Of a stretch of DNA of 64,000 nucleotides, positions 21,545 through 36,000 are shown one piece after another. The first letter of the stretch is position 1. Each line of letters opens with the position of its first letter. The notes below the pieces were generated by a model. That model did no database searches. It was not told the DNA's origin and worked only from the letters and a program-made list of their open reading frames with translations. Both the position numbers and the translations under genes were made by a program. The DNA comes from Pseudoalteromonas sp. G4 (GTDB taxonomy: Bacteria > Pseudomonadota > Gammaproteobacteria > Enterobacterales > Alteromonadaceae): the NCBI RefSeq assembly GCF_028875915.1, contig NZ_JAPEHW010000005.1:1-64000 (forward strand). The letters run 5' to 3'.

Positions 21545-23158
21545 TTAGTAACCTGGATATACCATCCATTCACCATCATCGAGTTGAATATAAGGTTTGC
21601 CATTGAACATCTGCATTCGAGTACCTGAGTTTTCACCAACCATTGGGGTTTTAGGTAAGTCAGCAGCCAATGCAGCTAGATCAAGGCTGCCTTCGAATTG
21701 GTTTTGGCGTGTTGCTCGTGCAATTAGTTCAGAAATAGCTAAATAGCTTGATGGCGCTGAAATAACCTTTTGTCCACTATCTGATTTAACCTTCGGACCA
21801 ATAAATTTTACACCTACAGGAATATCTAAAATAGCTGGGCTTGGAATATCTCGCATACCGGCTATCTGCATTTTATCACCTGCAAGTGAAGCACCGTGCT
21901 CTGGAACCATTACTACCATATAGTTACGGCCGCTTTGCTCTAAACGCTTAAAGAACTGGTCGAATTGCTTAAATAATATTTCTGTTCTTGTACCATAGCT
22001 TTTTAAACTACTGCCAAATTTACTTCGTCCTTCAATCACATTTCCGTCGTGTAAACTAATAGTGTTGTAATAAAGTGCAGCGCGAGGTTTACTCGATGTC
22101 AAACGGGATTTAAGCCATTTGTTAAGAACTTGCCCATCATCAAAAATTGGTGTGCCATCAAATGAACGCTGCGCAATTTTAACACCCGAAAGCGACTGCA
22201 ATTTTGCATCTACTCGACCTTGGCTTTCAACCATACCTAAGAAATTATCAAAATTACCGTTATGGTTCATCGCAAAGTCATTATCAAACCCTAAATTCGC
22301 CAAATTTTCAAAAAGATAACATTGCTTGTTTGCATCAGTGTAAAGACCCTGATGAGAGGTTTGGCCACAACTTGCTTTTAATAAACGGATACCAGCTGGA
22401 CCACTATACGATGTCGCCGAACTAAAATTATCAAACAATAGGTCGAACTGATTAAACAGTGCGTGCTTCGCTAAATTAACACGCTCTAAATCGTCCCAAC
22501 CGAGCGAACATACGTTAAGTAAAACAATATCAAAATCACCACCTAAATTAGATGAAGGAAATTCTGTTCGTAAACGCGACTGCTGCTGATAAAATGTTTC
22601 AATTGATTGTTCTGGGTTTAATGCACTTTGTGCTTGGCTTTGATTAGAGTTAGGCTGGCCATTATTTTTAACTAAAATAGGTTCTGTAGATGCGATATTT
22701 TGCGTTGCAAAAAATTGCAAAAATCCAATATATAACACACCCGCAATACTTACAGTTGTAAAGCGAACCCAATTAACTAGGTAAATGTAAATAATCACAA
22801 GTACCAATGCCATTGCAACAAATTGCCATGATAAGAAACGTGAGAGTAATTCAATTAAATACGGTAAACTAAAATCACTTAATAGGTCACCACTTTCTAA
22901 TAGACGTTGTAAAGGTGGTAAATATGAATCGTAATGCAATAAAAATAGCGCTACGACTATGGCAACTGCGTGCTTAACTTTTATTAAAATTGAATGTTTA
23001 AACGGCAGCAATAGAAACGCTATAAACGCAATATTTTCTAGTACATGAAGATCAATCACTTCAGAAAAATACAAACCTAGTTTAACTAAAAAGTATAAAT
23101 TCCAAAGCCCTAAAGCATCATAACGTAATGGGTCTTTGTCTAAGTGCGTAATACTCAT
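21545..23158 (-). CDS. bcsG: cellulose phosphoethanolamine transferase BcsG
   Basis: This 537-residue inner-membrane enzyme transfers phosphoethanolamine from phosphatidylethanolamine to nascent cellulose. About five membrane segments occupy residues ~17-150, followed by a periplasmic catalytic domain of the alkaline-phosphatase type. The probable nucleophile is Ser252 after Tyr251 (SATSYSGPAG), Cys217 lies in NVCSLGWDD, and the metal-site pair Glu420-His421 lies in MVVMVPEHGA. Spacing of the Cys and Ser (35 residues) equals that in E. coli BcsG. It is the last gene of the bcsE-bcsF-bcsG operon, three bases after bcsF, and a terminator follows. Confidence 0.95.
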   Translation of the reverse strand: MSITHLDKDPLRYDALGLWNLYFLVKLGLYFSEVIDLHVLENIAFIAFLLLPFKHSILIKVKHAVAIVVALFLLHYDSYLPPLQRLLESGDLLSDFSLPYLIELLSRFLSWQFVAMALVLVIIYIYLVNWVRFTTVSIAGVLYIGFLQFFATQNIASTEPILVKNNGQPNSNQSQAQSALNPEQSIETFYQQQSRLRTEFPSSNLGGDFDIVLLNVCSLGWDDLERVNLAKHALFNQFDLLFDNFSSATSYSGPAGIRLLKASCGQTSHQGLYTDANKQCYLFENLANLGFDNDFAMNHNGNFDNFLGMVESQGRVDAKLQSLSGVKIAQRSFDGTPIFDDGQVLNKWLKSRLTSSKPRAALYYNTISLHDGNVIEGRSKFGSSLKSYGTRTEILFKQFDQFFKRLEQSGRNYMVVMVPEHGASLAGDKMQIAGMRDIPSPAILDIPVGVKFIGPKVKSDSGQKVISAPSSYLAISELIARATRQNQFEGSLDLAALAADLPKTPMVGENSGTRMQMFNGKPYIQLDDGEWMVYPGY

Positions 23159-23161
23159 AAA

Positions 23162-23326
23162 TTAGTCTTTTTCCTGAGGCTTATAAGGGTGAATGGCTTT
23201 GTGTTTAAACGTCCATGTTTTGTAAAATTTAGTAATACCGCGCATTAATTCTTTTGCAAATTGTGCAATGAAAATACCTACCACAAGGCCAAAAATAAAC
23301 GCCAAGATTATATAAGTTAAATACAT
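23162..23326 (-). CDS. bcsF: small membrane protein BcsF
   Basis: This 54-residue protein has one N-terminal membrane helix (YIILAFIFGLVVGIFIAQF), followed by a basic tail rich in Lys. Size, topology and position between bcsE and bcsG match BcsF, which in E. coli recruits BcsE to the synthase and works with BcsG. The ATG is directly adjacent to the bcsE stop codon, and the stop lies three bases before bcsG, so the three genes are tightly coupled. Sequence identity with E. coli BcsF is low, so the name rests mostly on context. Confidence 0.85.
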   Translation of the reverse strand: MYLTYIILAFIFGLVVGIFIAQFAKELMRGITKFYKTWTFKHKAIHPYKPQEKD

Positions 23327-24916
23327 TTACTCTGAATCCATTAATTCTAAAGTGAAGGGTTTACACTCTTTCCGACTAGGAAAACGATTGATATCACTAA
23401 CAACAGATGTACGTCCTGATGTACTCATTGCAAGCGGTTGTTCTTCTAAAGCAGATTCTAACAACTGAATTGAGTAATCTTCTAACTCTTTATTCTCATC
23501 AGCGAGTTTTAGGTCACGGCAGATTTCTTCAATATATAAGTCTTGTGAGTAAATTGCGTGCGCCACAAAAAATTCGCTGATGGCTAATCGGAACAATCTC
23601 TCAAGTGCATTTGTAACATCATTTTCACGACAACCATGGAGGTATAACAAAACTTGTGAACGATTTGCAGTAAAAAAGTCACCATTTCGTTTAACAGAAA
23701 AGAGCCTAAGTGCGTCGATTGCATCAATCCCTTTGATTAAATCAAGGGCAACTAAAACACCGCTAATTCCTGTAGATAAACTGGCTTCTCTTTGTATTTT
23801 CACAGCATCAACAAAGTGCTGTGGTGTTAAATAGCCTTTTACCTCAACTCCATTTGCATGTGCTAAAACTGCCTTATAATCTTTTGGTAATACACGTGCA
23901 AACTTAACACCTTGAAGCGCTTGGACCTGTGACATTAATCGAGAAATGTCAGTGGTAGTATGTAAAATCAGGTTAACACCTAAAGTTAAAAATACGCATT
24001 CGTCGTGATGGCGTAACACACCATCTTTATTTTTAATAACTATTTTAAGCCATGGCCCACAATGCTCCCGTAATTCATAGCATTGCGCTGCAAGTACTGC
24101 TTTTTCGACATCTCGTGACGCATAAAGCACAACTGTTGCTGCTTTATTGGATTTAGCACTTTCTAATACACTGTTGTTATCTTCACAAACATGATAATTC
24201 GGCGGTAATTTTGTATCACTTGGAAGTAACTCTTTCGCAATAAACACTTGATCTAGGTTTTGTTGATAAAGGATATTATCATCTTCATGATGCTCTTCAA
24301 TTTGTGCATATGGTGACTCATCAAAGTACAGAAGATAACTTACTTTCGTTGAAATACCCTCACTATGACGCCAAAAATCAAATACTAAACGGTGGTTCAT
24401 CAAGTGGCTGTTTAAATGTGCTAAACCAGCGAGCAGATCATTATGCAAAATGAATTCTTTCGTTTTCTCAAGCGCACTTTTACCAGTCATTAAAAATAGT
24501 AAACTTACATTATATTTTTCAGCTAACTGTTCGCTTTTTTGCAAGAATCTAGCAATAAATTTTTCATCGAAACGACTGGTCAATGCTTCTGAAAAATGAA
24601 TAATTAGATGACCGTTGCTAAAACCAGCATAGAAACTTAACTCTTCAAATGTTTGTTCAATAAACGAAGAACGGTTTTCAATAAAAAACCCTTTATCTAA
24701 CGAAAAGGTTTGGCAACTAGCCTTTGACCAATGTTTTGCTTTTGCCAAAAAGCGATCTGGGTCTTGAGATATAATAAAGTTTTTATTTTGCTCGTCCAAC
24801 GAGCTCATTGCTAACTCAATCCCAAAATCTTCGCTGTTAGCAAACAACAAATACGTTGCGCTTTTGGCGATTTTTGCTTGCTCAAGTTGAATACCTGAAA
24901 AGTTCAATTTATGCAC
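23327..24916 (-). CDS. bcsE: c-di-GMP-binding cellulose regulator BcsE
   Basis: This is a 529-residue cytoplasmic protein of the BcsE family. BcsE has an inactive N-terminal ATPase-like part, a receiver-like part and a C-terminal GIL domain that binds c-di-GMP. The I-site motif RxGD is visible as Arg410-Asn-Gly-Asp413 (KRNGDFF), close to its position in E. coli BcsE (415-418). It promotes maximal cellulose synthesis through BcsF and BcsQ. It is the first gene of the minus-strand operon, divergent from bcsR. Confidence 0.92.
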   Translation of the reverse strand: MHKLNFSGIQLEQAKIAKSATYLLFANSEDFGIELAMSSLDEQNKNFIISQDPDRFLAKAKHWSKASCQTFSLDKGFFIENRSSFIEQTFEELSFYAGFSNGHLIIHFSEALTSRFDEKFIARFLQKSEQLAEKYNVSLLFLMTGKSALEKTKEFILHNDLLAGLAHLNSHLMNHRLVFDFWRHSEGISTKVSYLLYFDESPYAQIEEHHEDDNILYQQNLDQVFIAKELLPSDTKLPPNYHVCEDNNSVLESAKSNKAATVVLYASRDVEKAVLAAQCYELREHCGPWLKIVIKNKDGVLRHHDECVFLTLGVNLILHTTTDISRLMSQVQALQGVKFARVLPKDYKAVLAHANGVEVKGYLTPQHFVDAVKIQREASLSTGISGVLVALDLIKGIDAIDALRLFSVKRNGDFFTANRSQVLLYLHGCRENDVTNALERLFRLAISEFFVAHAIYSQDLYIEEICRDLKLADENKELEDYSIQLLESALEEQPLAMSTSGRTSVVSDINRFPSRKECKPFTLELMDSE

Positions 24917-25236: not shown

Positions 25237-25413
25237 GTGACTAATAGTCAGAACGCAGAATTAATTGAAAATGCATATCATGCGCACGATATTTCTAAAC
25301 TAGAATCAAAAAGCAACATTGCAGTAGCTGATTACGTTGAGATTACAGAAAAACAAAAAGAGATCAAAATTATTGCTAAGTACGATCTTTTCAGCGAAAT
25401 TGAAGAAGTTTAA
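25237..25413 (+). CDS. bcsR: small cellulose regulator BcsR
   Basis: This 58-residue protein starts at GTG, with AGAGG eight bases upstream. The C-terminal half (VADYVEITEKQKEIKIIAKY followed by DLFSEIEEV) resembles the conserved part of E. coli BcsR (pattern DYADIS...WPLLAEF). BcsR binds BcsQ and the complex supports assembly of the synthase at the cell pole or membrane. It lies 29 bases before bcsQ, the usual order. Confidence 0.85.
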   Translation: MTNSQNAELIENAYHAHDISKLESKSNIAVADYVEITEKQKEIKIIAKYDLFSEIEEV

Positions 25414-25442: not shown

Positions 25443-26156
25443 ATGAATCGAGTTTTTTTTAAAGGCATCAAAGGTGGAACAGGGACAACATCTATTATTG
25501 CCAATATTGCAACACTACTAGCTCAAAGTAAACACAGTGTGTTGTGTATCGATCTCGACCCAAAAAATGAACTTTGTCTTCATTTAGGGCATCAATGGCA
25601 TAATCAGATAGGTTGGTCGAATAAAGCCATAGATGCTGATGCAAATTGGAGTGATTCTGCTTTTATCAACGAAGATAATGTAAAGTATGTGCCATTTGGC
25701 TCGGAATCAACCAATACTTTTGCTCTTTGTACATTATTAAATCAATCGAAACGCCTAAACCTTGAAGCTAATAGCTGGTTACTATTTGATGTGCCGAGCC
25801 ATATTTCTCTTGAAGAATTACCTCTCGATGAAAACGACTTAATAATCAATATTGTTACCTGTGATGCTGGCTGTTATAGCCAAATTAAAAAAGGTCATTC
25901 AGGTAGTAACGGCTTCTATTTAATTAATCGCTTTAATGCAAGCAACCCATTAGAACTCGATGTTTATCAGATTTGGCGTGCAAATTTAAATCAACTAGCA
26001 CCTTTTTTTATTCACTTTGACAGTTCAGTTCCTGAAGCGCTTGCGGCAAAAAATGTGTTAATCAACTGCTCTCCTTTGAGTGTCGTAAAGGAAGACTTTC
26101 AAGCTTTGGCAAGTTGGTTAAATAACAAACGCAAAAGTTTGTCGAATTCATTATGA
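25443..26156 (+). CDS. bcsQ: MinD/ParA-like ATPase BcsQ
   Basis: This is a 237-residue SIMIBI ATPase of the cellulose locus. The P-loop is KGGTGTTS near residue 10: the first signature Lys is kept, while the usual second Lys is Thr, as in E. coli BcsQ (GGVGTTT). An Asp switch lies in VLCIDLDPKNEL and DVPSH. With BcsR it helps localise and stabilise the Bcs secretion complex at the inner membrane. Its stop overlaps the bcsA start by four bases. Confidence 0.92.
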   Translation: MNRVFFKGIKGGTGTTSIIANIATLLAQSKHSVLCIDLDPKNELCLHLGHQWHNQIGWSNKAIDADANWSDSAFINEDNVKYVPFGSESTNTFALCTLLNQSKRLNLEANSWLLFDVPSHISLEELPLDENDLIINIVTCDAGCYSQIKKGHSGSNGFYLINRFNASNPLELDVYQIWRANLNQLAPFFIHFDSSVPEALAAKNVLINCSPLSVVKEDFQALASWLNNKRKSLSNSL

Positions 26157-28780
26157 GCGATAGAGTTTTGACCAGCCCGCAATTCGGCATTAGCTTAATT
26201 AAATCACGCTACAACTATTTCTTTGAAGAGAATAGCTATAGTGTTTTTATGTCAATTCTACTGACAATTAGCTATTTTCTTCTACATGCTTTTATTAAAT
26301 TAGAACGCATTGATTTCAATAATGCATTTTATCGTTATTTCCCACAGTTAAAACCAAACCGTTTCCGTCTTGGCGATCCGCTTCGTTTTATGATTCAGCT
26401 GCTATTTTTAACATTGGTGAAATTTAAGCGAGATAGTAAAGAAGTCCGTGAAAAAGAAACTAAATACTCAATTTTTAAAATCTTACCTTTGTTTATTGAT
26501 TGGGCTATTCGCTTTGATAAATGGTTTACTTTAAGGGTGAGGCAATCGCTCAATAAAGAAATAAACGAAAGTACCCAGACTGGTTTCCAAAAGCTTACTG
26601 CAGCAGATTTTTGGGAAAACCCTCATATCACAAAGATACTGCTTGCAGCAGTACTTTTCTTGCTTGCAATTTTCATTACAGTACCTTTTTCACTTGAAGC
26701 ACAAGCTATTTTTGTGAGCTTAATTTTATTTATCGCATATTCACTTCGTGGTATCGAGGGACCACTGCCAACTATTGTAATGATAACACTATCAGTGACT
26801 ACTTCTACACGTTATATTTGGTGGCGTTTTAATGAAACCCTTAACTGGGGTGATCCTATCGCCCTCTTTTTAGGCTTTGGTCTACTCGCCGCAGAAGCAT
26901 ACGCATGGTTTATTCTAATTTTAGGTTTCTTCCAAACAATTCGTCCTCTTAAACGTAAACCAGTCAAGCTACCGAAAGACACCAGCAGTTGGCCAACGGT
27001 TGATGTTTATATTCCAACTTATAACGAGCCATTAAGTGTTGTAAAACCAACAACCATTTCTGCATTGGCACTCGATTGGCCAGAAGATAAACTGAACGTT
27101 TATATTCTTGACGATGGCAAGCGTGACGAGTTCAAACAATTTGCTGCCGAAATAGGTGTTGGCTATATAGTTCGCCCTACAAATTTCCATGCAAAAGCAG
27201 GTAACTTAAACCATGCTATGCGTTACACTGATGGCGATTTAATTGCCATTTTCGACTGCGACCACGTTCCTGTTCGTTCATTCTTACAGATGACAATTGG
27301 TCAGTTTGTCGAAGATCCTAAAATGTGTCTGGTGCAAACACCTCACCATTTTTTCTCTGCCGATCCATTTGAAAAGAATCTCGGTAATTTCGCTCAAATT
27401 CCTAACGAAAACATGTTGTTCTATGGCCTTATTCAAGATGGCAATGACCTGTGGGATGCCACATTCTTCTGTGGTTCTTGTGCCGTAATTCGTCGTAGTG
27501 CCATCGAGGAGATTGGTGGGTTTGCTTTTGAAACAGTAACTGAAGATGCCCACACAGCCCTGAAAATGCAGCGTAAAGGCTATCGCACAGCGTATATCAA
27601 TATTCCACAAGCAGCAGGTCTTGCAACAGACAGTTTATCAACCCATGTAGGACAACGTATTCGTTGGGCAAGAGGCATGGCGCAGATCTTTAGAGTAGAT
27701 AACCCTCTGCTTGGACGAGGGCTTTCACTAAGCCAGCGCTTTTGTTATCTCAATGCGGCCATGCACTTTTTTTCTGGTATTCCACGTATAGTGTTTTTGA
27801 CCGCCCCGCTGGCATTGATTTATTTTGATGCATACATCATTTATGCGCCCTTTTTAGCAATTTTATTGTATGTTGTACCCACCTTAATGCAGGTAAAAAT
27901 CACCAACTCCCGAATTCAAGGTAAATGGCGTTACTCGTTTTGGGGTGAAGTATACGAAGCAGTACTTGCATGGTATATATTAAAACCAACAACAGTTGCG
28001 CTTTTCGCTCCTAATAAAGGTAAATTTAACGTAACAGAAAAAGGCGGTTTAACCGATAAAGATTTCTATGACTGGGAAATCTCTAAACCGTATTTATTCT
28101 TAGCTACCATCAATTTAATTGGATTAATCATTGGTGTTTTTCGCATATTCTTTGGTGACCCTGTGCAAATTGGTGTGTTGTTAATTAGTATGGCCTGGGC
28201 GTTATACAACTTTATGATTTTGGGAGCTGCAATCGCAGTTGCTGCAGAAGCAAAGCAAGTACGTCGTTCTCATCGAATTTCAGCCGATTTCCCTGCTGCT
28301 ATTCGTGATACTCATGGTAGAACTTTTAAAGTACGTGTTACCGATTTTAGTGATGTTGGTGTGGGTGTTAGTTTACCCGCAGACGATTTAATTAAGATTG
28401 AAAGTGATATTGAACTTATTATGTCACGTGGTCGTCGTCAGTTTTCATTCCCTTGCAAAGTGATTAATGCGCGAAAAAATCGTGCAGGGCTTATTTTAAG
28501 TGATCTCTCTTTAGAACAAGAAAAAAATTACATCGAATCTACATTCAGCCGTGCCGATGCTTGGCTCACATGGCAAGATAATTTCACGCATGATCTTCCC
28601 TCTGAAAGTTTTAAGCACGTGCGCCAAACCAGTGTTCGTGGTTTTAAGAGCTTAATTCTACATGCGCCTGAAAATGCAAAGAAATACATAACAAAAATTG
28701 GTAATATTTTAATTTTGGTTGGCTCGTTTATGCCGCAAAAACCAAAACTGGGAAATTTAAATTATGAAAGTGCTAACTAA
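26153..28780 (+). CDS. bcsA: cellulose synthase catalytic subunit BcsA
   Basis: This is an 875-residue inner-membrane processive glycosyltransferase (GT2) that polymerises UDP-glucose to cellulose and passes it through its own channel. After an N-terminal extension with membrane helices come the catalytic motifs: DDGK, Asp368-Cys-Asp370 (DxD), FFCGS, Thr463-Glu-Asp465 (catalytic base) and Gln501-xx-Arg-Trp505. The C-terminal PilZ domain has RxxxR (704-708) and the TDFSDVGVG element, so activation by c-di-GMP is expected. Length equals that of E. coli BcsA. It overlaps bcsQ by four bases and bcsB by 17 bases. Confidence 0.98.
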   Translation: MSDRVLTSPQFGISLIKSRYNYFFEENSYSVFMSILLTISYFLLHAFIKLERIDFNNAFYRYFPQLKPNRFRLGDPLRFMIQLLFLTLVKFKRDSKEVREKETKYSIFKILPLFIDWAIRFDKWFTLRVRQSLNKEINESTQTGFQKLTAADFWENPHITKILLAAVLFLLAIFITVPFSLEAQAIFVSLILFIAYSLRGIEGPLPTIVMITLSVTTSTRYIWWRFNETLNWGDPIALFLGFGLLAAEAYAWFILILGFFQTIRPLKRKPVKLPKDTSSWPTVDVYIPTYNEPLSVVKPTTISALALDWPEDKLNVYILDDGKRDEFKQFAAEIGVGYIVRPTNFHAKAGNLNHAMRYTDGDLIAIFDCDHVPVRSFLQMTIGQFVEDPKMCLVQTPHHFFSADPFEKNLGNFAQIPNENMLFYGLIQDGNDLWDATFFCGSCAVIRRSAIEEIGGFAFETVTEDAHTALKMQRKGYRTAYINIPQAAGLATDSLSTHVGQRIRWARGMAQIFRVDNPLLGRGLSLSQRFCYLNAAMHFFSGIPRIVFLTAPLALIYFDAYIIYAPFLAILLYVVPTLMQVKITNSRIQGKWRYSFWGEVYEAVLAWYILKPTTVALFAPNKGKFNVTEKGGLTDKDFYDWEISKPYLFLATINLIGLIIGVFRIFFGDPVQIGVLLISMAWALYNFMILGAAIAVAAEAKQVRRSHRISADFPAAIRDTHGRTFKVRVTDFSDVGVGVSLPADDLIKIESDIELIMSRGRRQFSFPCKVINARKNRAGLILSDLSLEQEKNYIESTFSRADAWLTWQDNFTHDLPSESFKHVRQTSVRGFKSLILHAPENAKKYITKIGNILILVGSFMPQKPKLGNLNYESAN

Positions 28781-31076
28781 AGTAGCAGGAAGCATATTAG
28801 CGCTCTGCACGCTATACAGCGTGAATGGCTCTGCAACCACGAGTGATAATCTTGCATCTAGTAACTTTGCCGGCAACACTATCAAAATTGCTGAAAACAA
28901 AGATATCTACAAAGACGGTTACCCTGAAGCTGGGCCTCGCAGTACCTTATCTTACACCTTTGAGCAGTTAAATCGTCCTGACATGCGTCTTCGAGGTGTA
29001 CAGGCCAGCCGAACGGTGGATTTCACCAACCGTGTAGACCATATCATTACTGATTTAAGCCTTGATTTTGCGTTTACTAGCTCACCATCTCTTATTCGTG
29101 AACTTTCGCATTTAAAGGTGTATTTAAATGAAGAAGTGATGGCTACTATTCCAGTTACTGATGCTAGCCCTGAAAAAGTAAATGAAGGTATGCAGCGTCA
29201 TACCATCAAACTTGAACCTAAATTTGTAGAAGATTTCAATACCTTACGGTTTGAATTAATTGGCCACTATACTCGTGAATGTGAAGATCCATTCCATTCG
29301 AGTATTTGGGCTGATATTAGTCGCACAAGCCGTATAACTTATACCGAACAGCAATTGCCATTTGAAAGTTTACTTGCGCAATTCCCTGAACCTTTTTTTG
29401 ACGAACGTGATTACTCTCAACTAAATTTACCATTTGTATTTAATGAAACGCCTGACAATACTACCCTGCATGCTGCGAGTATTTTAAGCTCTTGGTTTGG
29501 TGCTAAAGCAAACTGGCGTGGTGCAAAATTCCCTGTAAATTACAATGAGCTACCTAGTTCACACAGTGTGGTATTTGCCACAAACGATAACCGCCCAGAT
29601 TTTCTTGCTGATTACCCTGACGTAGATGGCCCTATTGTTGAAGTAATTGCGAATCCAGAACATAGATACCAAAAGCTATTGCTTATCTTAGGGCGTAATA
29701 GTGACGATTTAAAAGTAGCTGCCGAAGGCCTCGCCTTAGGTCTACCTATGATGACAGGGCGTACTGCGAAAATTAATAAAGTCGAGTACATTGAACCTCG
29801 CAAGGCTTACGATGCACCGCGTTGGATCCGCTCTGATCGCCCTGTTCGTTTTGGCGAATTAGTCGAGTACAAGAACCAGTTACAAGCTATCGGTTACAGT
29901 GCACCACCAGTGAAACTGGATGTGCGTGTTGCCCCTGATCTCTTTACTTGGTACACCGATGGTTTACCGATCGAATTAAAATACCGTTATACCCCTCCTA
30001 CAGATAAAGGGGTATCTCGTCTTAATATGTCAATCAACCAAGAGTATGTCCAAGGTTATAAACTTGACCCAGATGAATTCTCAACGCTGGTAGATGAAGA
30101 TATCCGCATTCCTTTGCTATCAACGGACGATACCGATAAAGAACGCTACTTCACTGTTCCTGGTTTTAAAGTTGATATTAAAAATGACGTTGCTTTTGAG
30201 TTTTTATTTTCAACTGAAAAAGAAGGCTTTTGTCAAACCACTGCTCCTGAGGGCACAATTGGTTCCATTGACGAAAACTCAACTATCGATGTATCCGGAT
30301 ATCACCACTATATTGCGATGCCTAATTTGCACGCTTACGCGCAAGGCGGATTTCCATTCACTAAATTTGCTGATTTAAGTGAAACGCTTATTGTGCTGCC
30401 TGAGTCACCTAACCGCGACGAGGTAGAGACACTTCTCACAGCGACAGGTCATTTAGGTCAAACAACAGGTTACCCTTCTTTAAAAGCAACGATCTTAACC
30501 GACAATGGTGCTGAAATTGATTTTGATAACAAAGATATTTTACTAATTGGTTCACAAACTGGTGCAGAGAGCTTTGCGCAAGTTGAGCATATATCAGTAC
30601 TAATTGATCACTCTCTAAGAGAAATTAAGCAGGCAATTTACGAAACTCAGCCATACAAATATGCAAAAACCAACGAGGATGCATCAACCCATGTATCGCT
30701 TGAGAGCTATGGTTCACTTGCTGCAATTGCCGGCTTCCAGTCACCATTTAACGATGAGAGAAGTGTCGTGTCTATCATGGCTGCATCAAGTAATGACTTA
30801 CATTTGATCAACAACACTTTAATTGATGGTGCTAAATTGATCGAAGTACAAGGTACAGCAACCATCATTAACCCTTATAAAGTTCACCAGTCTCACCTTG
30901 GTGAGCGCTATTACGTTGGCTCATTACCACTTCATACATTAATTTGGTTCCATTTATCTGATCATCCATTGCTATTAGCATTTATGACCATTATTACATT
31001 ACTTATTTTATCTGTTATTTTATGGCGTGTACTAAACACATTAGCACGCAAACGTGTTGGCGATAAGGAAGACTAA
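28764..31076 (+). CDS. bcsB: cellulose synthase periplasmic subunit BcsB
   Basis: This 770-residue membrane-anchored periplasmic partner of BcsA has a signal peptide at 1-~25 and alternating carbohydrate-binding and flavodoxin-like domains. It ends in one membrane helix (TLIWFHLSDHPLLLAFMTII and following residues) that docks to BcsA. It guides the glucan across the periplasm. It starts within the end of bcsA and ends two bases before bcsZ. Confidence 0.97.
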   Translation: MKVLTKVAGSILALCTLYSVNGSATTSDNLASSNFAGNTIKIAENKDIYKDGYPEAGPRSTLSYTFEQLNRPDMRLRGVQASRTVDFTNRVDHIITDLSLDFAFTSSPSLIRELSHLKVYLNEEVMATIPVTDASPEKVNEGMQRHTIKLEPKFVEDFNTLRFELIGHYTRECEDPFHSSIWADISRTSRITYTEQQLPFESLLAQFPEPFFDERDYSQLNLPFVFNETPDNTTLHAASILSSWFGAKANWRGAKFPVNYNELPSSHSVVFATNDNRPDFLADYPDVDGPIVEVIANPEHRYQKLLLILGRNSDDLKVAAEGLALGLPMMTGRTAKINKVEYIEPRKAYDAPRWIRSDRPVRFGELVEYKNQLQAIGYSAPPVKLDVRVAPDLFTWYTDGLPIELKYRYTPPTDKGVSRLNMSINQEYVQGYKLDPDEFSTLVDEDIRIPLLSTDDTDKERYFTVPGFKVDIKNDVAFEFLFSTEKEGFCQTTAPEGTIGSIDENSTIDVSGYHHYIAMPNLHAYAQGGFPFTKFADLSETLIVLPESPNRDEVETLLTATGHLGQTTGYPSLKATILTDNGAEIDFDNKDILLIGSQTGAESFAQVEHISVLIDHSLREIKQAIYETQPYKYAKTNEDASTHVSLESYGSLAAIAGFQSPFNDERSVVSIMAASSNDLHLINNTLIDGAKLIEVQGTATIINPYKVHQSHLGERYYVGSLPLHTLIWFHLSDHPLLLAFMTIITLLILSVILWRVLNTLARKRVGDKED

Positions 31077-31078
31077 TT

Positions 31079-32197
31079 ATGAAAAAGTTACTCATTGTAT
31101 TATTGCTTCTAATGCCAACATTCTTGAAAGCTGAAAGTTGTATGGTTTGGCCTGAGTGGCAAACATTTAAAAGCAATTTTATTTCAAAAGAAGGCCGAGT
31201 CATTGATTTAGGCTCTGAGAAAAATATAACCACTAGTGAGGGACAATCTTACGGTTTATTCTTTGCATTAGTCGCAAACGATCAAGAAACCTTTGATAAG
31301 TTACTTAACTGGACCGAGCGTCACCTTGCGGAAGGTGATTTAAGCGCTCGTTTACCTGCATGGCTTTGGGGCCGTAAAACGCCATCAAGCTACGGTATTT
31401 TAGATTCTAACCCTGCATCTGACTCTGATTTATGGATTGCCTATGCATTAGCAGAAGCGAGTCATTTATGGAACGAGCGCCGCTATGCAGTGCTTGCTGC
31501 GGTAATGGCAAAGCGCATTTTAAAAGAAGAGACTGAATTTTTACCGGGTCTCGGTTTAACATTATTACCTGCACCTTATGGTTTTAAAGTTGACGACAAT
31601 ACATGGCGCTTAAACCCAAGCTATCTACCACCATTTATCTTCCAACGTTTTATTGAGCTCTATCCAAGTCAACCATGGCAAGAAGTACTAAATTCATCTT
31701 TGGTAGTGCTTTCAGAAAGTGCACCAAAAGGCTTTAGCCCTGATTGGGTGCTATACAATCCCAAAAAAGGCTTCCATTTCACTAAAAAGCATAATGATGA
31801 GGGTAACTTCAATGCTATTCGCAGTTATCTATGGGTAGGATTGTTAGCTGATGATGTTAGTTATAAAGAGCAGTTGCTATTCAAATTTGACCCAATGGCA
31901 CGCAAAGTAAGTAGTAATCGTGCAGTACCACTCAACACTTATGCTAAAACAGGCCGCACTAACAAAACTGGACCACTTGGATTCCAAGCTGCGATATTAC
32001 CTTTTATGAAATCATTTGGCGATCGTGTAACTGCCAGCATGATAAATCAAAAAATCAATGCAAATATTGATTATGAACTTAGAAATAACTATTACAGCAG
32101 TGTATTAACTTTATTTGGTACTGCTGCAACAAATGCGCGTTTTGAGCTTCAAAATGATGGCTCGTTAGTGCCAGCATGGAGTACCGAATGCAACTAA
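31079..32197 (+). CDS. bcsZ: GH8 endo-1,4-beta-glucanase BcsZ, catalytic base replaced
   Basis: This 372-residue periplasmic glucanase of the cellulose locus has a signal peptide at 1-~18. The proton donor Glu54 lies in TTSEGQSYG and the substrate Asp115 in NPASDSDLW, equivalent to E. coli Glu55 and Asp116. The catalytic base, Asp243 in E. coli (SYDAIR), is Asn245 here (NFNAIR, codon AAT at 31811-31813). The two proteins align over this stretch without gaps. Activity may therefore be low, or a nearby acid such as Asp240 or Glu241 may replace it. The next gene overlaps its end. Confidence 0.95.
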   Translation: MKKLLIVLLLLMPTFLKAESCMVWPEWQTFKSNFISKEGRVIDLGSEKNITTSEGQSYGLFFALVANDQETFDKLLNWTERHLAEGDLSARLPAWLWGRKTPSSYGILDSNPASDSDLWIAYALAEASHLWNERRYAVLAAVMAKRILKEETEFLPGLGLTLLPAPYGFKVDDNTWRLNPSYLPPFIFQRFIELYPSQPWQEVLNSSLVVLSESAPKGFSPDWVLYNPKKGFHFTKKHNDEGNFNAIRSYLWVGLLADDVSYKEQLLFKFDPMARKVSSNRAVPLNTYAKTGRTNKTGPLGFQAAILPFMKSFGDRVTASMINQKINANIDYELRNNYYSSVLTLFGTAATNARFELQNDGSLVPAWSTECN

Positions 32198-35100
32198 GAG
32201 CGACGGCACTTTTAGTTAGCTGTTTACTTGGGACACACCTTCATGCCAATGAAGGCCTTGATGCACAGCCTATTAGTTGGCTTTTAGAGCAAGTAGAGCT
32301 TGGCGAGGCACAACAAAAACCTCAACTGGTGATAGATAGCCTTGCGCGTCTTGAACAAGTTGAACCAGGCAGTCTTGATATAAGAGCGGCATGGATCCGC
32401 TACTATTTTGAACAAGGCGAAGTTGAAAAGGCCAAAGAAGAGTTAAAAGCGTTTAAAAAGGACGAACCCTTCTACCCTTATATTCAACGACTAGACAGCA
32501 TTGCATACATTCATTCGCCTGAAGGTAAGCAAAGGTTAAATTTAGTCAGGGCAAAAGCCGTCGGTGGTCAATCTAAATTAGCTGCGAAAGAGTTCAAAGC
32601 ACTTTTTCGTGGAGACATTCCCACAGCCCGTTTAAAATTTGAATACGCTAATATTTTGTCTGCAGATCCAGACAGCTGGCAGCAAGCTAAAACACTCTTT
32701 ACCAAGTTAACTCAGCGCTATCCAAACACCGCAGAGTTTGAAGTTGCCTATGCCCGCCATATTTTGAAACGCAAACCAACTGACAAAAAATCGCTGGCAA
32801 TTTTACGAAAATATGCAACTCATTCACAAATGCGCATTGAGGTTGAGCGAGTATGGCTAAATGCCCTCGAAGACATGCCGATCAGTACGTTTACCCGTTC
32901 ACAATATAGCTATTTCTTTAGTCTTTACCCAAATAGCGACTTAGGTAAATTACAGTACGAAGTATTCAGTGAAAAGTTAGTTGCACAATTAAAACTTGAA
33001 GCAGATCCAAATTATCAAGCATGGCAGCGTGCTCGCCGCCATATGGCAAAAGAAAATTATGCCCTTGCGGAAAAGCTATTACGTAAAGCTGCTGCAGGAA
33101 GACCTAAAGATGCAGATATCGTTGGCGATCTTGGCCGAGCGTTAATGGCGCAAGGAAAACACGACGATGCCCAACAATATTTCTCTAAAGCAGCATCATT
33201 GGCACAAACCAGCGATAAGTCAATTTGGCTTGGTTTGCTTAATACCGCTAAGTTTTGGGGGCTCATTGCCAAAGCACGTGTAGCTATCGATGCACTGGAA
33301 CTTACAGAGGCAGAATCCCTTCTGGCAAGCGCATTAAAACTTAAAGAAGACACTAACACAGTACTCATTTATTCCTCGCAAGTTGCCAAAGCAAAAGGTG
33401 ATACGAAACAAGCCACTAAATATTTACAAACCGTTTTACGTAGCGACCCAAACAACGCTTATGCACTGTCTTTATTACTGGGTATTGTGGAAGAGCAGCA
33501 AGATATCGCTGTTTTGGAACGATTTGAATCAAGCTTAACTCAAAAACAACGTGAAGCGGTCGCGGCGGAAATAAAAGCAGCAAAAACCGCTATCTATCGC
33601 GATAAAGCTGAAGAGTTATCGAGTCATGGCGAGCCTCAAGCTGCGATTGCATTACTTGAAAAAGCAATAAAAACGTCACCAACTAATGGCTGGCTTTATT
33701 ATGATTTGGCATTTGAGTGGCGTAAATTAGGCGATATAGACGCAAGTAGAAAAGTATATAACCAAGCACTTTGGCGTTTTCCAATGAACCCTGAAATTCG
33801 CTATACCCATGCGTTATATATGCGCTCTCTAGGTGATTTCCGCGCTGGATTACAAAGTCTGTCTTATATAAGAGTAAAAGATTACACACCGCAAATAAAA
33901 GAACTGAAAGAAACACTTGCTCTTGGCGAGCAGTTTGAACAAGTTGATATATTAATCGACACAGAGCAAAAAGCATCAGCTCTTGCCCTTTTACAAGAAA
34001 TCGAAAACCAGAATGATTTAAGCAACCTGCAAAACGCGCAAATTGCAGCGCAGTGGTACAAGCTTGGTATGCATAATCGCGCTTCGGATCAACTTAGAAA
34101 AGCGCTTGATAGCACACCAAAACTCGATTTTTACTGGTATCAGTTATATAGCGAGTGGTTACTTAATGCAGATGACACTGAAGTACTTGATGCTTGGTTC
34201 ACCAATTTACATATAGCACCTGCTGCAACACAAAGTGAAAAACGTGAAATTGAAAACTTAAAGGTTCGCTATCAAGTAAAAAAACAGCCTGATCGTGAAG
34301 AAATTATTTTAACGTCTTATTTAAGTAATAACCCATCAAGTATTCCTGCCAATACTCGATTGTTAGAGTTTGCCCTCAATAAAGGTGAATTTGAGCAAGT
34401 AGATTTACTTTACGAAAATGCCCATAAATATGGCGAACTTGAATTTGAAACAGAGTACCAACTGGCACAAAAAGCACTATTAAATAACAAGTATGCGTTA
34501 GGTGAGAAAGTAGTCAGCCACCTTGTATACCGTGTGCCTGCTGATGAAAACTATAATCAACGTCGTTTAATGGCGCTTTTATTGGATTTTAAAGATCAAC
34601 AAAGCGCACTTAGGTTGCAAAAAGATTTATTAGCACTTTCTCCAGCAGATGGCGAATTGCTAAATCTTTCGGGTCAAGTTGCCGACAAATTTGGTGAAAG
34701 TGAATTAGCAATCCAATATTACCGTCAAGTTTTAACGAAGCAAGACCTCGATATTGCAGATAAGAAAGTATTACACGAACTTGCGCAAGATAAAGAAACA
34801 GATACTTGGTATATGCGTTCTGCTCGCTCTGGCATAGCAAAAATTAAAAACCGTACCGATGGTCATATTGCATTAGCCGGTGATTTTAGCGGTCAAACTA
34901 GCACGCAAAATGATCACGAATTAGGCTTAGGGGCAGCCCTTTTTGAAGGCTATTTCCCTTTTATGGATGGGCAACTGTTTGCAAAAGCCGATGCAGTCAG
35001 TATTTCGGCTCAACAAACGAACTTTTCAGAGCGTTTTGCGGCAAGCCGATACGGTACAGGTGCGCTTTGTTATGATACTTGTTCATTATTCAGTATCACA

Positions 35101-36000
35101 CCACGTGATCAAGGAATTGCACTAGGCTTTGGTTGGCAAAACGACAACTGGCGAGTTGATATTGGTACTACGCCACAAGGCTTTTTAATTTCAAATATTG
35201 TTGGTGGGCTACTTTATCAAAATAGCCTAGGTGACTTCAGCTATGACATTGAAATCGAGCGACGAGCACTCACTAACAGTGTACTATCCTACGCAGGCCT
35301 TGAAGATGTTAATCAAAATGAAATATGGGGTGGCGTTACCAGTAATGGTATTACATTAGGCCTTTATCATGATCTAGGACTAGATTGGGGCTTTTGGGCA
35401 ACACTCGATTATCAATATTATCAGGGTCAAAATGTACTTGATAATGACCGTAAACGGGCGATGACCGGTGCTTATTACCGCTTTATCCAACAGCCAGACT
35501 TTGAACTCTCAGTTGGAACTAACTTGTTGTATTGGGGTTATAAACATAATCTGTCAGAAGAAACGTATGGTCATGGTGGCTACTACAGCCCGCAAAAATA
35601 CTTCGGACTTTCAGTACCTATCACGGTAGATGGTCGTTTTGAAAATGATTTAGTATATCGTCTCAAAGTTAACGGCGGTTATTCAAGTTCGAGCACAGAT
35701 GCTATCAATTTTTACCCTAATAACCCCGAGCTACAAGCTGTTGCAGAGCTTAAGGCCCTTGAAACAGGCATCGACCCGGTGTTTTCAGCTGATAAAAGCA
35801 GTGGTTTTTCATGGGGTATTGAAGGTTTGGTCGAATATCGCTTACAACCGCAATGGTTAATTGGCGCAAGCTTTAATATTGACCGTGCTGATTTTTATGA
35901 GCCAAATTACGGACAGATCTACGTGAAATATCTATTTAACCCTATGTACGGTGAATTACCATTGGTACCAAGGTTAATTGTGCCTTACGCCAACTATTAA
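32188..36000 (+). CDS. bcsC: cellulose export protein BcsC
   Basis: This 1270-residue export protein comprises a signal peptide (MQLRATALLVSCLLGTHLHA), a long periplasmic solenoid of tetratricopeptide repeats (to about residue 900) and a C-terminal 16-strand-type outer-membrane barrel (from about 940, with repeats of Gly and aromatic residues). It carries the glucan across the periplasm and outer membrane. I chose ATG 32188 over 32176 because GGAG lies six bases upstream of it and the signal peptide then begins properly. It overlaps the end of bcsZ by ten bases. It is the last gene of the operon, followed by a bidirectional terminator. Confidence 0.95.
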   Translation: MQLRATALLVSCLLGTHLHANEGLDAQPISWLLEQVELGEAQQKPQLVIDSLARLEQVEPGSLDIRAAWIRYYFEQGEVEKAKEELKAFKKDEPFYPYIQRLDSIAYIHSPEGKQRLNLVRAKAVGGQSKLAAKEFKALFRGDIPTARLKFEYANILSADPDSWQQAKTLFTKLTQRYPNTAEFEVAYARHILKRKPTDKKSLAILRKYATHSQMRIEVERVWLNALEDMPISTFTRSQYSYFFSLYPNSDLGKLQYEVFSEKLVAQLKLEADPNYQAWQRARRHMAKENYALAEKLLRKAAAGRPKDADIVGDLGRALMAQGKHDDAQQYFSKAASLAQTSDKSIWLGLLNTAKFWGLIAKARVAIDALELTEAESLLASALKLKEDTNTVLIYSSQVAKAKGDTKQATKYLQTVLRSDPNNAYALSLLLGIVEEQQDIAVLERFESSLTQKQREAVAAEIKAAKTAIYRDKAEELSSHGEPQAAIALLEKAIKTSPTNGWLYYDLAFEWRKLGDIDASRKVYNQALWRFPMNPEIRYTHALYMRSLGDFRAGLQSLSYIRVKDYTPQIKELKETLALGEQFEQVDILIDTEQKASALALLQEIENQNDLSNLQNAQIAAQWYKLGMHNRASDQLRKALDSTPKLDFYWYQLYSEWLLNADDTEVLDAWFTNLHIAPAATQSEKREIENLKVRYQVKKQPDREEIILTSYLSNNPSSIPANTRLLEFALNKGEFEQVDLLYENAHKYGELEFETEYQLAQKALLNNKYALGEKVVSHLVYRVPADENYNQRRLMALLLDFKDQQSALRLQKDLLALSPADGELLNLSGQVADKFGESELAIQYYRQVLTKQDLDIADKKVLHELAQDKETDTWYMRSARSGIAKIKNRTDGHIALAGDFSGQTSTQNDHELGLGAALFEGYFPFMDGQLFAKADAVSISAQQTNFSERFAASRYGTGALCYDTCSLFSITPRDQGIALGFGWQNDNWRVDIGTTPQGFLISNIVGGLLYQNSLGDFSYDIEIERRALTNSVLSYAGLEDVNQNEIWGGVTSNGITLGLYHDLGLDWGFWATLDYQYYQGQNVLDNDRKRAMTGAYYRFIQQPDFELSVGTNLLYWGYKHNLSEETYGHGGYYSPQKYFGLSVPITVDGRFENDLVYRLKVNGGYSSSSTDAINFYPNNPELQAVAELKALETGIDPVFSADKSSGFSWGIEGLVEYRLQPQWLIGASFNIDRADFYEPNYGQIYVKYLFNPMYGELPLVPRLIVPYANY

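Follow-up and report, generated by a model that had tools for sequence, protein, structure and literature searches.

An asparagine at the catalytic-base position of Pseudoalteromonas sp. G4 BcsZ and the two-state Asn/Asp position of cellulose-synthesis-linked GH8 enzymes

The BcsZ encoded within a 64,000-nucleotide stretch of DNA from Pseudoalteromonas sp. G4 (contig NZ_JAPEHW010000005.1, positions 1 to 64,000; the window) carries an asparagine, Asn245, where the E. coli enzyme has its catalytic base, in an otherwise intact GH8 domain that retains Glu54 and Asp115. An initial annotation of the sequence had drawn attention to this substitution, and both a reading of the codon (AAT) and a phmmer alignment agree with it. 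Judged from the sequences compared here, asparagine at the base is more general than that annotation supposed: in 157 distinct BcsZ orthologs the base column holds Asn in 98, Asp in 59 and no other residue. G4 BcsZ is a genuine BcsZ of the Asn type, kept by selection, and most likely still works as an inverting endo-beta-1,4-glucanase on nascent periplasmic cellulose, which it would trim. That it does so with Glu241 as a relocated base we consider close to an even chance, if just short of one.

The gene order is bcsQ-bcsA-bcsB-bcsZ-bcsC, with bcsE and bcsG divergent (Table 1); we take the product of bcsG to be the phosphoethanolamine transferase of cellulose. Small ORFs of 54 residues (23162-23326, minus strand) and 58 residues (25237-25413, plus strand) are sited where bcsF and bcsR are expected, and a comparison with the Pfam families of those two genes gave no match. 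The bcsZ product, visibly hydrophobic at its N-terminus, scores 479.4 bits against NCBIfam NF008305, for which the curated equivalog cut-off is 299, and 241.9 bits against the GH8 family PF01270; it is the single GH8 match in a search of its own genome. An AlphaFold2 model (56 sequences, mean pLDDT 96.9) has the (alpha/alpha)6 barrel of GH8 structures. Its PDB matches range over Z values of 31.9-53.8, with BcsZ structures at 52-54, headed by 4q2b (53.8) and 5cd2 (52.6), and other GH8 structures at 32-36.

Table 1. Genes of the cellulose synthesis cluster and active-site codons of bcsZ (positions in the window).
Feature	Position	Strand	Basis or remark
bcsG	21545..23158	-	PF11658, 638.4 bits
bcsE	23327..24916	-	PF10995, 457.8 bits
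bcsQ	25443..26156	+	TIGR03371, 200.8 bits
bcsA, cellulose synthase with PilZ domain	26153..28780	+	NF008558, 1233.8 bits; PF07238
bcsB	28764..31076	+	PF03170, 683.3 bits
bcsZ, predicted periplasmic GH8 endo-glucanase of the cellulose synthase complex, Asn-type, 372 residues	31079..32197	+	NF008305, PF01270
bcsC	32176..36000	+	PF05420, 351.8 bits; overlaps the end of bcsZ
Glu54, general acid	31238..31240	+	E in 157/157 BcsZ orthologs
Asp115, -1 subsite	31421..31423	+	D in 157/157 BcsZ orthologs
Tyr182, AfmE1 Tyr160 by spacing	31622..31624	+	Y in 157/157 BcsZ orthologs
Asp222, possible relay partner	31742..31744	+	acid in 138/139 Asn-type rows
Asp240 (GAT), second base candidate of the initial annotation, not conserved	31796..31798	+	
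Glu241 (GAG), at -4 relative to Asn245, most favoured candidate for a relocated base	31799..31801	+	column of BpEG Glu271 by numbering
Asn245 (AAT), at the GH8a catalytic-base position	31811..31813	+	codon 245 of ORF 31079-32197
Arg248, counterpart of EbBcsZ Arg245	31820..31822	+	R in 157/157 BcsZ orthologs
Tyr338, taken by position as EbBcsZ Tyr330 (equivalence inferred)	32090..32092	+	Y in 153/153 rows reaching the column

In the phmmer alignment Asn245 lies opposite the aspartate of the E. coli BcsZ chains 3qxf, 3qxq and 9b87, the segment SSYDAIRVYMW of E. coli corresponding to GNFNAIRSYLW of G4 BcsZ; the E. coli base is presumably residue 243. It also aligns with an asparagine in 5cd2, the BcsZ of Vibrio fischeri ES114 (GSYNAIRVYLW). 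The aspartate that marks GH8a at the base position (Asp278 of CelA) is absent, its place being taken by Asn245, and the general-acid glutamate and -1 subsite aspartate common to GH8 are present as Glu54 and Asp115. The family has been divided according to where its base lies (PMC6173055, PMC5407803; papers are cited by accession). The tyrosine of AfmE1 matched by Tyr182 is said to position the nucleophilic water (PMC5407803), and the arginine of EbBcsZ matched by Arg248 forms a salt bridge with the catalytic acid (PMC8805304). Glu54, Asp115, Tyr182 and Arg248 are unchanged throughout the 157 orthologs.

An ortholog was taken to be a row scoring above 180 bits to G4 BcsZ in searches centred on that protein, so that the share of Asn given above is not the share among all BcsZ. 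The set consists of 154 sequences (97 Asn, 57 Asp) and three added later (one Asn, two Asp), from genomes G952 and G1025 and the second copy of G1387, which are absent from the counts over 139 Asn-type and 75 Asp-type rows and from the 144-row tree discussed below. G919 is the same record as locus L164 and hence gives no new ortholog.

Within the genus, BcsZ was found in 45 of 108 genomes, 44 with Asn and one, G014, with Asp; the base codons are AAT in 33, AAC in 11 and GAT in one. The synonymous variation among the 44 indicates that asparagine itself is kept by selection. Had all relatives carried Asp, a one-off mutation or an error would have been suggested, and the initial annotation had proposed an alignment of related BcsZ on that account. 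This is not the situation: Asn is conserved in the genus and occurs in several other families, and the idea of a sequencing error or isolated mutation at codon 245 is refuted, its probability being negligible. The sole Asp-type BcsZ of the genus (L073) has a long branch and comes from a genome, G014, that gave no match to BcsG; it may represent either an operon replacement or a reversion.

Outside the genus, asparagine is found in 34 of 35 full-length matches of family f21, which we take as Vibrionaceae since L134 is 98% identical to 5cd2; the one Asp is that of G952. Families f3, f11, f12, f34, f68 and f198 also have Asn, and f212 has four Asn rows and one Asp row together with an Asp-type second copy in G1387, a genome whose two BcsZ copies (L169 and L332) are thus one of each type. 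Named carriers of Asn are Pseudoalteromonas donghaensis, Catenovulum adriaticum, Photobacterium sp. GJ3, three Caballeronia, Burkholderia ambifaria and Acidithiobacillus caldus. Those of Asp are Escherichia coli, Klebsiella aerogenes, Enterobacter hormaechei, Aeromonas caviae, Aquabacterium olei, Cupriavidus pinatubonensis, Caballeronia sp. M1242 and Pseudomonas putida (4q2b). No description of an Asn/Asp dimorphism in BcsZ or CelC was found in the open-licence PMC literature searched.

Some individual records deserve mention. Fifteen of 21 plasmid BcsZ records were examined, the remaining six being from E. coli and Klebsiella. In P. donghaensis (L160, NZ_CP032092.1) a bcsRQABZC operon with an Asn-type BcsZ lies on a 244-kb plasmid typed as mobilizable, and cellulose synthesis may therefore move between strains. 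The bcsZ of Photobacterium sp. GJ3 (L164, L331) is split by a frame change near residue 252 (G4 numbering), either an error or a pseudogene. Seven GH8 paralogs of family f11, genus g28 (L149-L152, L154-L156), have Asn in place of Asp115; at the base six of them have Asn and one has Ser, and an acid immediately precedes that column in all seven (GENANR, GDNASK, GESANR). They form a doubly altered GH8 subgroup, perhaps acting as binding proteins or by another mechanism.

Comparison of G4 bcsZ with two relatives at 95-96% identity gave dN/dS values of 0.030 and 0.024, which are rough because dS (0.87 and 1.31) is near or above 1; the same comparisons gave 0.023 and 0.020 for bcsA and 0.016 and 0.022 for bcsB. 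Pseudoalteromonas sp. P1-9 is a relative at 96%. The gene is intact, under strong purifying selection and no pseudogene.

The smaller of two trees, built from 87 rows after thinning at 88%, requires a minimum of six Asn/Asp changes, three of them forced by well supported branches, and one large clade contains Pseudoalteromonas, Vibrionaceae and others. On a wider tree of 144 rows (a quick tree with midpoint root, thinned at 85% and without L164, L179, one Ser row and columns 238-246) the minimum is 12. As read from these trees, asparagine at the base is an old and repeated natural variant with several switches. The suggestion that G4 BcsZ belongs to a distinct Bcs-associated subclass holds in so far as Asn marks a Bcs-associated class, but that class is not a single clade.

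Two accompanying features were considered and set aside. Position 116, beside Asp115, is Ser in 83 of 84 Asn rows and 18 of 44 Asp rows (128 orthologs); Ser116 was rejected as a compensating change since Asn-type Burkholderia, Caballeronia and Acidithiobacillus have Ala and there are too few independent pairs. Among 80 genomes searched, BcsG was found in 41 of the 43 with an Asn-type BcsZ and 28 of the 37 with an Asp-type one, a difference that follows ancestry; both types have BcsG and no cause is claimed.

That an Asn-type GH8 enzyme might be active is suggested by two lines of work. Firstly, CelC2 of Rhizobium leguminosarum, studied as a purified protein, is reported to be a cellulase with specificity for amorphous cellulose, CMC for example, and its knockout or overproduction alters cellulose fibrils (PMC3520766, PMC6761101). 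In Rhizobium (genus g478, identified by coordinates shared with named plasmid records) a GH8 match is present in 114 of 120 genomes, and the primary CelC-type copies have Asn at the base in 113 of 113 (69 AAC, 44 AAT), Asp at the column of Asp115 in 113 of 113 and an acid four residues before the base (position -4) in 112. Plasmid-borne named copies of the bcs-linked GH8 of rhizobia and their relatives have Asn in 10 of 10 examined, out of 115 matching records. Secondly, recombinant purified BpEG of Burkholderia pyrrocinia acts on CMC, swollen cellulose and cello-oligosaccharides, and its authors take Glu83 for the donor and Glu271 for the acceptor, and describe Arg278 as conserved (PMC6987409). 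The BcsZ of B. ambifaria has Glu272, Asn276 at the base column and Arg279, one off from the BpEG numbering, so that Glu271 is the -4 residue of BpEG and its residue 275 is, very probably, an asparagine.

From these relatives we infer that BpEG and the CelC2 of strain ANU843 carry Asn at the base, and with both enzymes reported active Asn is probably compatible with catalysis. As BpEG was produced in E. coli BL21, the preparation could contain some of the host's own BcsZ, which is Asp-type. The claim of its authors that Glu271 is strictly conserved in GH8 is contradicted by our alignments, in which E. coli has Ile.

Some further Rhizobium loci may be noted. Six second GH8 copies (L321-L326), of about 43% identity, have Asp at the base, and in five of the six genomes the Asp-type copy coexists with an Asn-type primary copy, a natural within-genome comparison. 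The celC-like gene of R. leguminosarum plasmid pSK06 (L198, NZ_CP022570.1) is in three pieces in different frames, and is broken or misread.

An alternative, which we regard as unlikely, is that G4 BcsZ is very slow or inactive and mainly serves the secretion complex in cellulose binding or in assembly. When the base of an Asp-type GH8 enzyme is mutated, nearly all activity is lost but sugar is still bound (PMC8805304, PMC6173055). The D242A mutant of EbBcsZ no longer acted on bacterial cellulose (PMC8805304) and TtGH8 D281N retained about 0.1% activity according to the text of the report (PMC6173055), although both are engineered changes in Asp-type enzymes; the tabulated values for D281N, 1.8e4 against 1.6e8, correspond to about 0.01%. 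No Asn-type enzyme of Pseudoalteromonas or Vibrionaceae was found to have been assayed in the literature searched, and Glu54 persists in the seven f11 paralogs that have lost Asp115, so that conservation of the acid is no proof of catalysis. Against this, Asn is invariant among the primary copies of Rhizobium, the genus of CelC2, and is found in Burkholderia relatives of BpEG, both enzymes being reported active; a binding protein, moreover, would be expected to tolerate residues beyond Asn and Asp at the base column, and none occurs in the 157 orthologs. In Salmonella, overexpression of BcsZ lowered the cellulose-dependent morphotype and that of the catalytic mutant E56A did not (PMC5070118), which indicates that BcsZ activity matters for function there. 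The binding or scaffolding protein envisaged by the initial annotation is thus disfavoured.

The same annotation had alternatively offered Asp240 or Glu241 as the base, and these two candidates fared differently. Position -4, that of Glu241, holds an acid in 52 (48 Glu, 4 Asp) of the 139 Asn rows as against three of the 75 Asp rows, counts that contain many related rows. The set of 215 rows from which they come includes 20 of 119 Rhizobium loci (every sixth), nine named loci and all six of the second copies, of which one is shared; L088, L114, L198 and every row that did not exceed 60 bits were omitted. Asp240 was rejected: it is Gly in L004, a relative 96% identical to G4 BcsZ, and its column is acidic in 34 of the 139 Asn rows and 13 of the 75 Asp rows. 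A base at Asp240, like a dead scaffold, is less likely.

The -4 acid is found in G4 BcsZ and three near relatives, in three of 32 f21 rows and L330, in Burkholderia, three Caballeronia, families f34 and f198, part of f221, the f11 paralogs and nearly all the Rhizobium primary copies. Among Asn-type rows it is missing from 40 of the 44 in the genus and from 29 of the 32 in f21, and Glu241 therefore cannot be the general answer. On the 144-row tree the acid is gained seven times on Asn and three times on Asp branches and lost twice on Asn branches, a difference in gains that is not significant with total branch lengths about equal (25 and 28 changes per site, respectively). Four of the gains on Asn branches head groups of several rows and those on Asp branches are single rows; by lineage, the enrichment of the acid on Asn branches is only suggestive. 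Across rows the -4 position is mostly hydrophobic or Thr, so that a side chain at this place may point away from the cleft. For G4 BcsZ, Glu241 nevertheless stands as a serious candidate for the base, and the leading one.

If Glu241 has this role, Glu54 would protonate the leaving group as usual, Asn245 and Tyr182 would hold the attacking water and Glu241, in the loop leading into the base helix, would take over as the proton acceptor. This would be akin to the loop-supplied base thought to operate in GH8b, and activity may be below that of the Asp-type BcsZ. GH8b, from work by Adachi in 2004, is said to take its base from a loop, with an insert before the base helix. The spacing from Trp223 to the base is 22 residues in G4 BcsZ, within the Asp-type range of 20-29, and the loop insert of GH8b is thus not seen.

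Asparagine might itself be the base, Asn245 acting as an imidic acid with a proton relay, for example by way of Asp222 or the Arg248-Glu54 pair; we hold this to be doubtful. It would account for Asn-type enzymes that have no -4 acid, and for the 37 of 139 Asn rows without any acid from -9 to -1, and a column restricted to Asn and Asp is what would be expected if the side chain does chemistry. The column of Asp222 is an acid (Asp or Glu) in all but one of the 139 Asn-type rows and Asn in six of 75 Asp-type rows. An asparagine base has been proposed in GH45 subfamily C, GH95 and GH139 (PMC12282258, PMC5829257), although one of these reports argues that Asn is not universal even in GH45 subfamily C (PMC5829257). 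Counting against the idea, asparagine engineered into an Asp-type GH8 enzyme leaves 0.01-0.1% activity (PMC6173055), and no residue was found among the 215 rows that changes consistently with Asn across lineages. Nor was an acid column specific to all Asn-type enzymes found over 128 orthologs or over the 215 rows. It is a decidedly doubtful proposition that BcsZ has switched its base repeatedly and reversibly and that the Asn enzymes lacking a loop acid (many from Vibrionaceae and Pseudoalteromonas) function as inverting cellulases by letting Asn take the proton. Where the -4 acid is missing, the candidates for Asn-type rows are an imidic Asn working through a relay, slow catalysis and a binding role.

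A further proposal, deamidation of Asn245 to Asp after synthesis, would restore the usual base. It is chemically possible, Asn is an isostere of Asp and the BcsZ column switches between these two only. Deamidation is usually slow at an Asn before Ala or at the start of a helix; here the next residue is Ala and residue 245 begins a helix in the AlphaFold2 model. Deamidation also gives no reason for the retention of Asn codons, and we judge it very improbable.

The base of the CelA/BcsZ group of GH8 has been described as a fixed aspartate, and our survey finds instead a two-state Asn/Asp position in cellulose-synthesis-linked GH8. Both the marine Pseudoalteromonas and Vibrio and the genera Burkholderia and Rhizobium are spanned by it, including families with enzymes reported to be active. 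This raises the question of how an inverting cellulase works, and relocates its base, without the canonical aspartate. Care is needed in annotating such proteins as ordinary endoglucanases and in the use of D-to-N mutants as dead controls. Asn-base chemistry, if true in BcsZ, has so far been proposed for only a few other families.

The known enzymes closest in setting are the GH8a proteins E. coli BcsZ (3qxf, 3qxq, 9b87) and EbBcsZ (7f81, 7f82), 45-46% identical over the model. They share with G4 BcsZ the operon role, the fold, the acid, the -1 subsite Asp and the network of Arg and Tyr, but have an Asp base where G4 BcsZ has Asn and, compared with E. coli, Glu at -4. V. fischeri ES114 BcsZ (5cd2), which appears as a comparison structure in a figure legend (PMC8805304), is 46% identical and has Asn at the base position but no -4 acid (SVGSYN). 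The BcsZ of B. ambifaria (46% identical) and of three Caballeronia resemble G4 BcsZ in both Asn and the -4 Glu; Caballeronia sp. M1242 differs in having Asp. Rhizobium CelC2-type GH8 also has Asn and the -4 acid, but belongs to a distant bcs-linked branch (HSEGQG type).

With the GH8b chitosanase type (Bacillus sp. K17) the likeness is through presumed relatives, which share the asparagine and preceding acids but differ from G4 BcsZ in substrate: the GH8 proteins of Haliovirga and Aureimonas with the chitosanase motif, two proteins compared by eye, have Asn three residues before the conserved Arg and acids just upstream. Glu309 of the K17 enzyme could not be placed on the G4 BcsZ alignment. 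PcCel45A of GH45 subfamily C, although of another family, is likewise an inverting cellulase for which Asn has been proposed as the base (PMC5829257).
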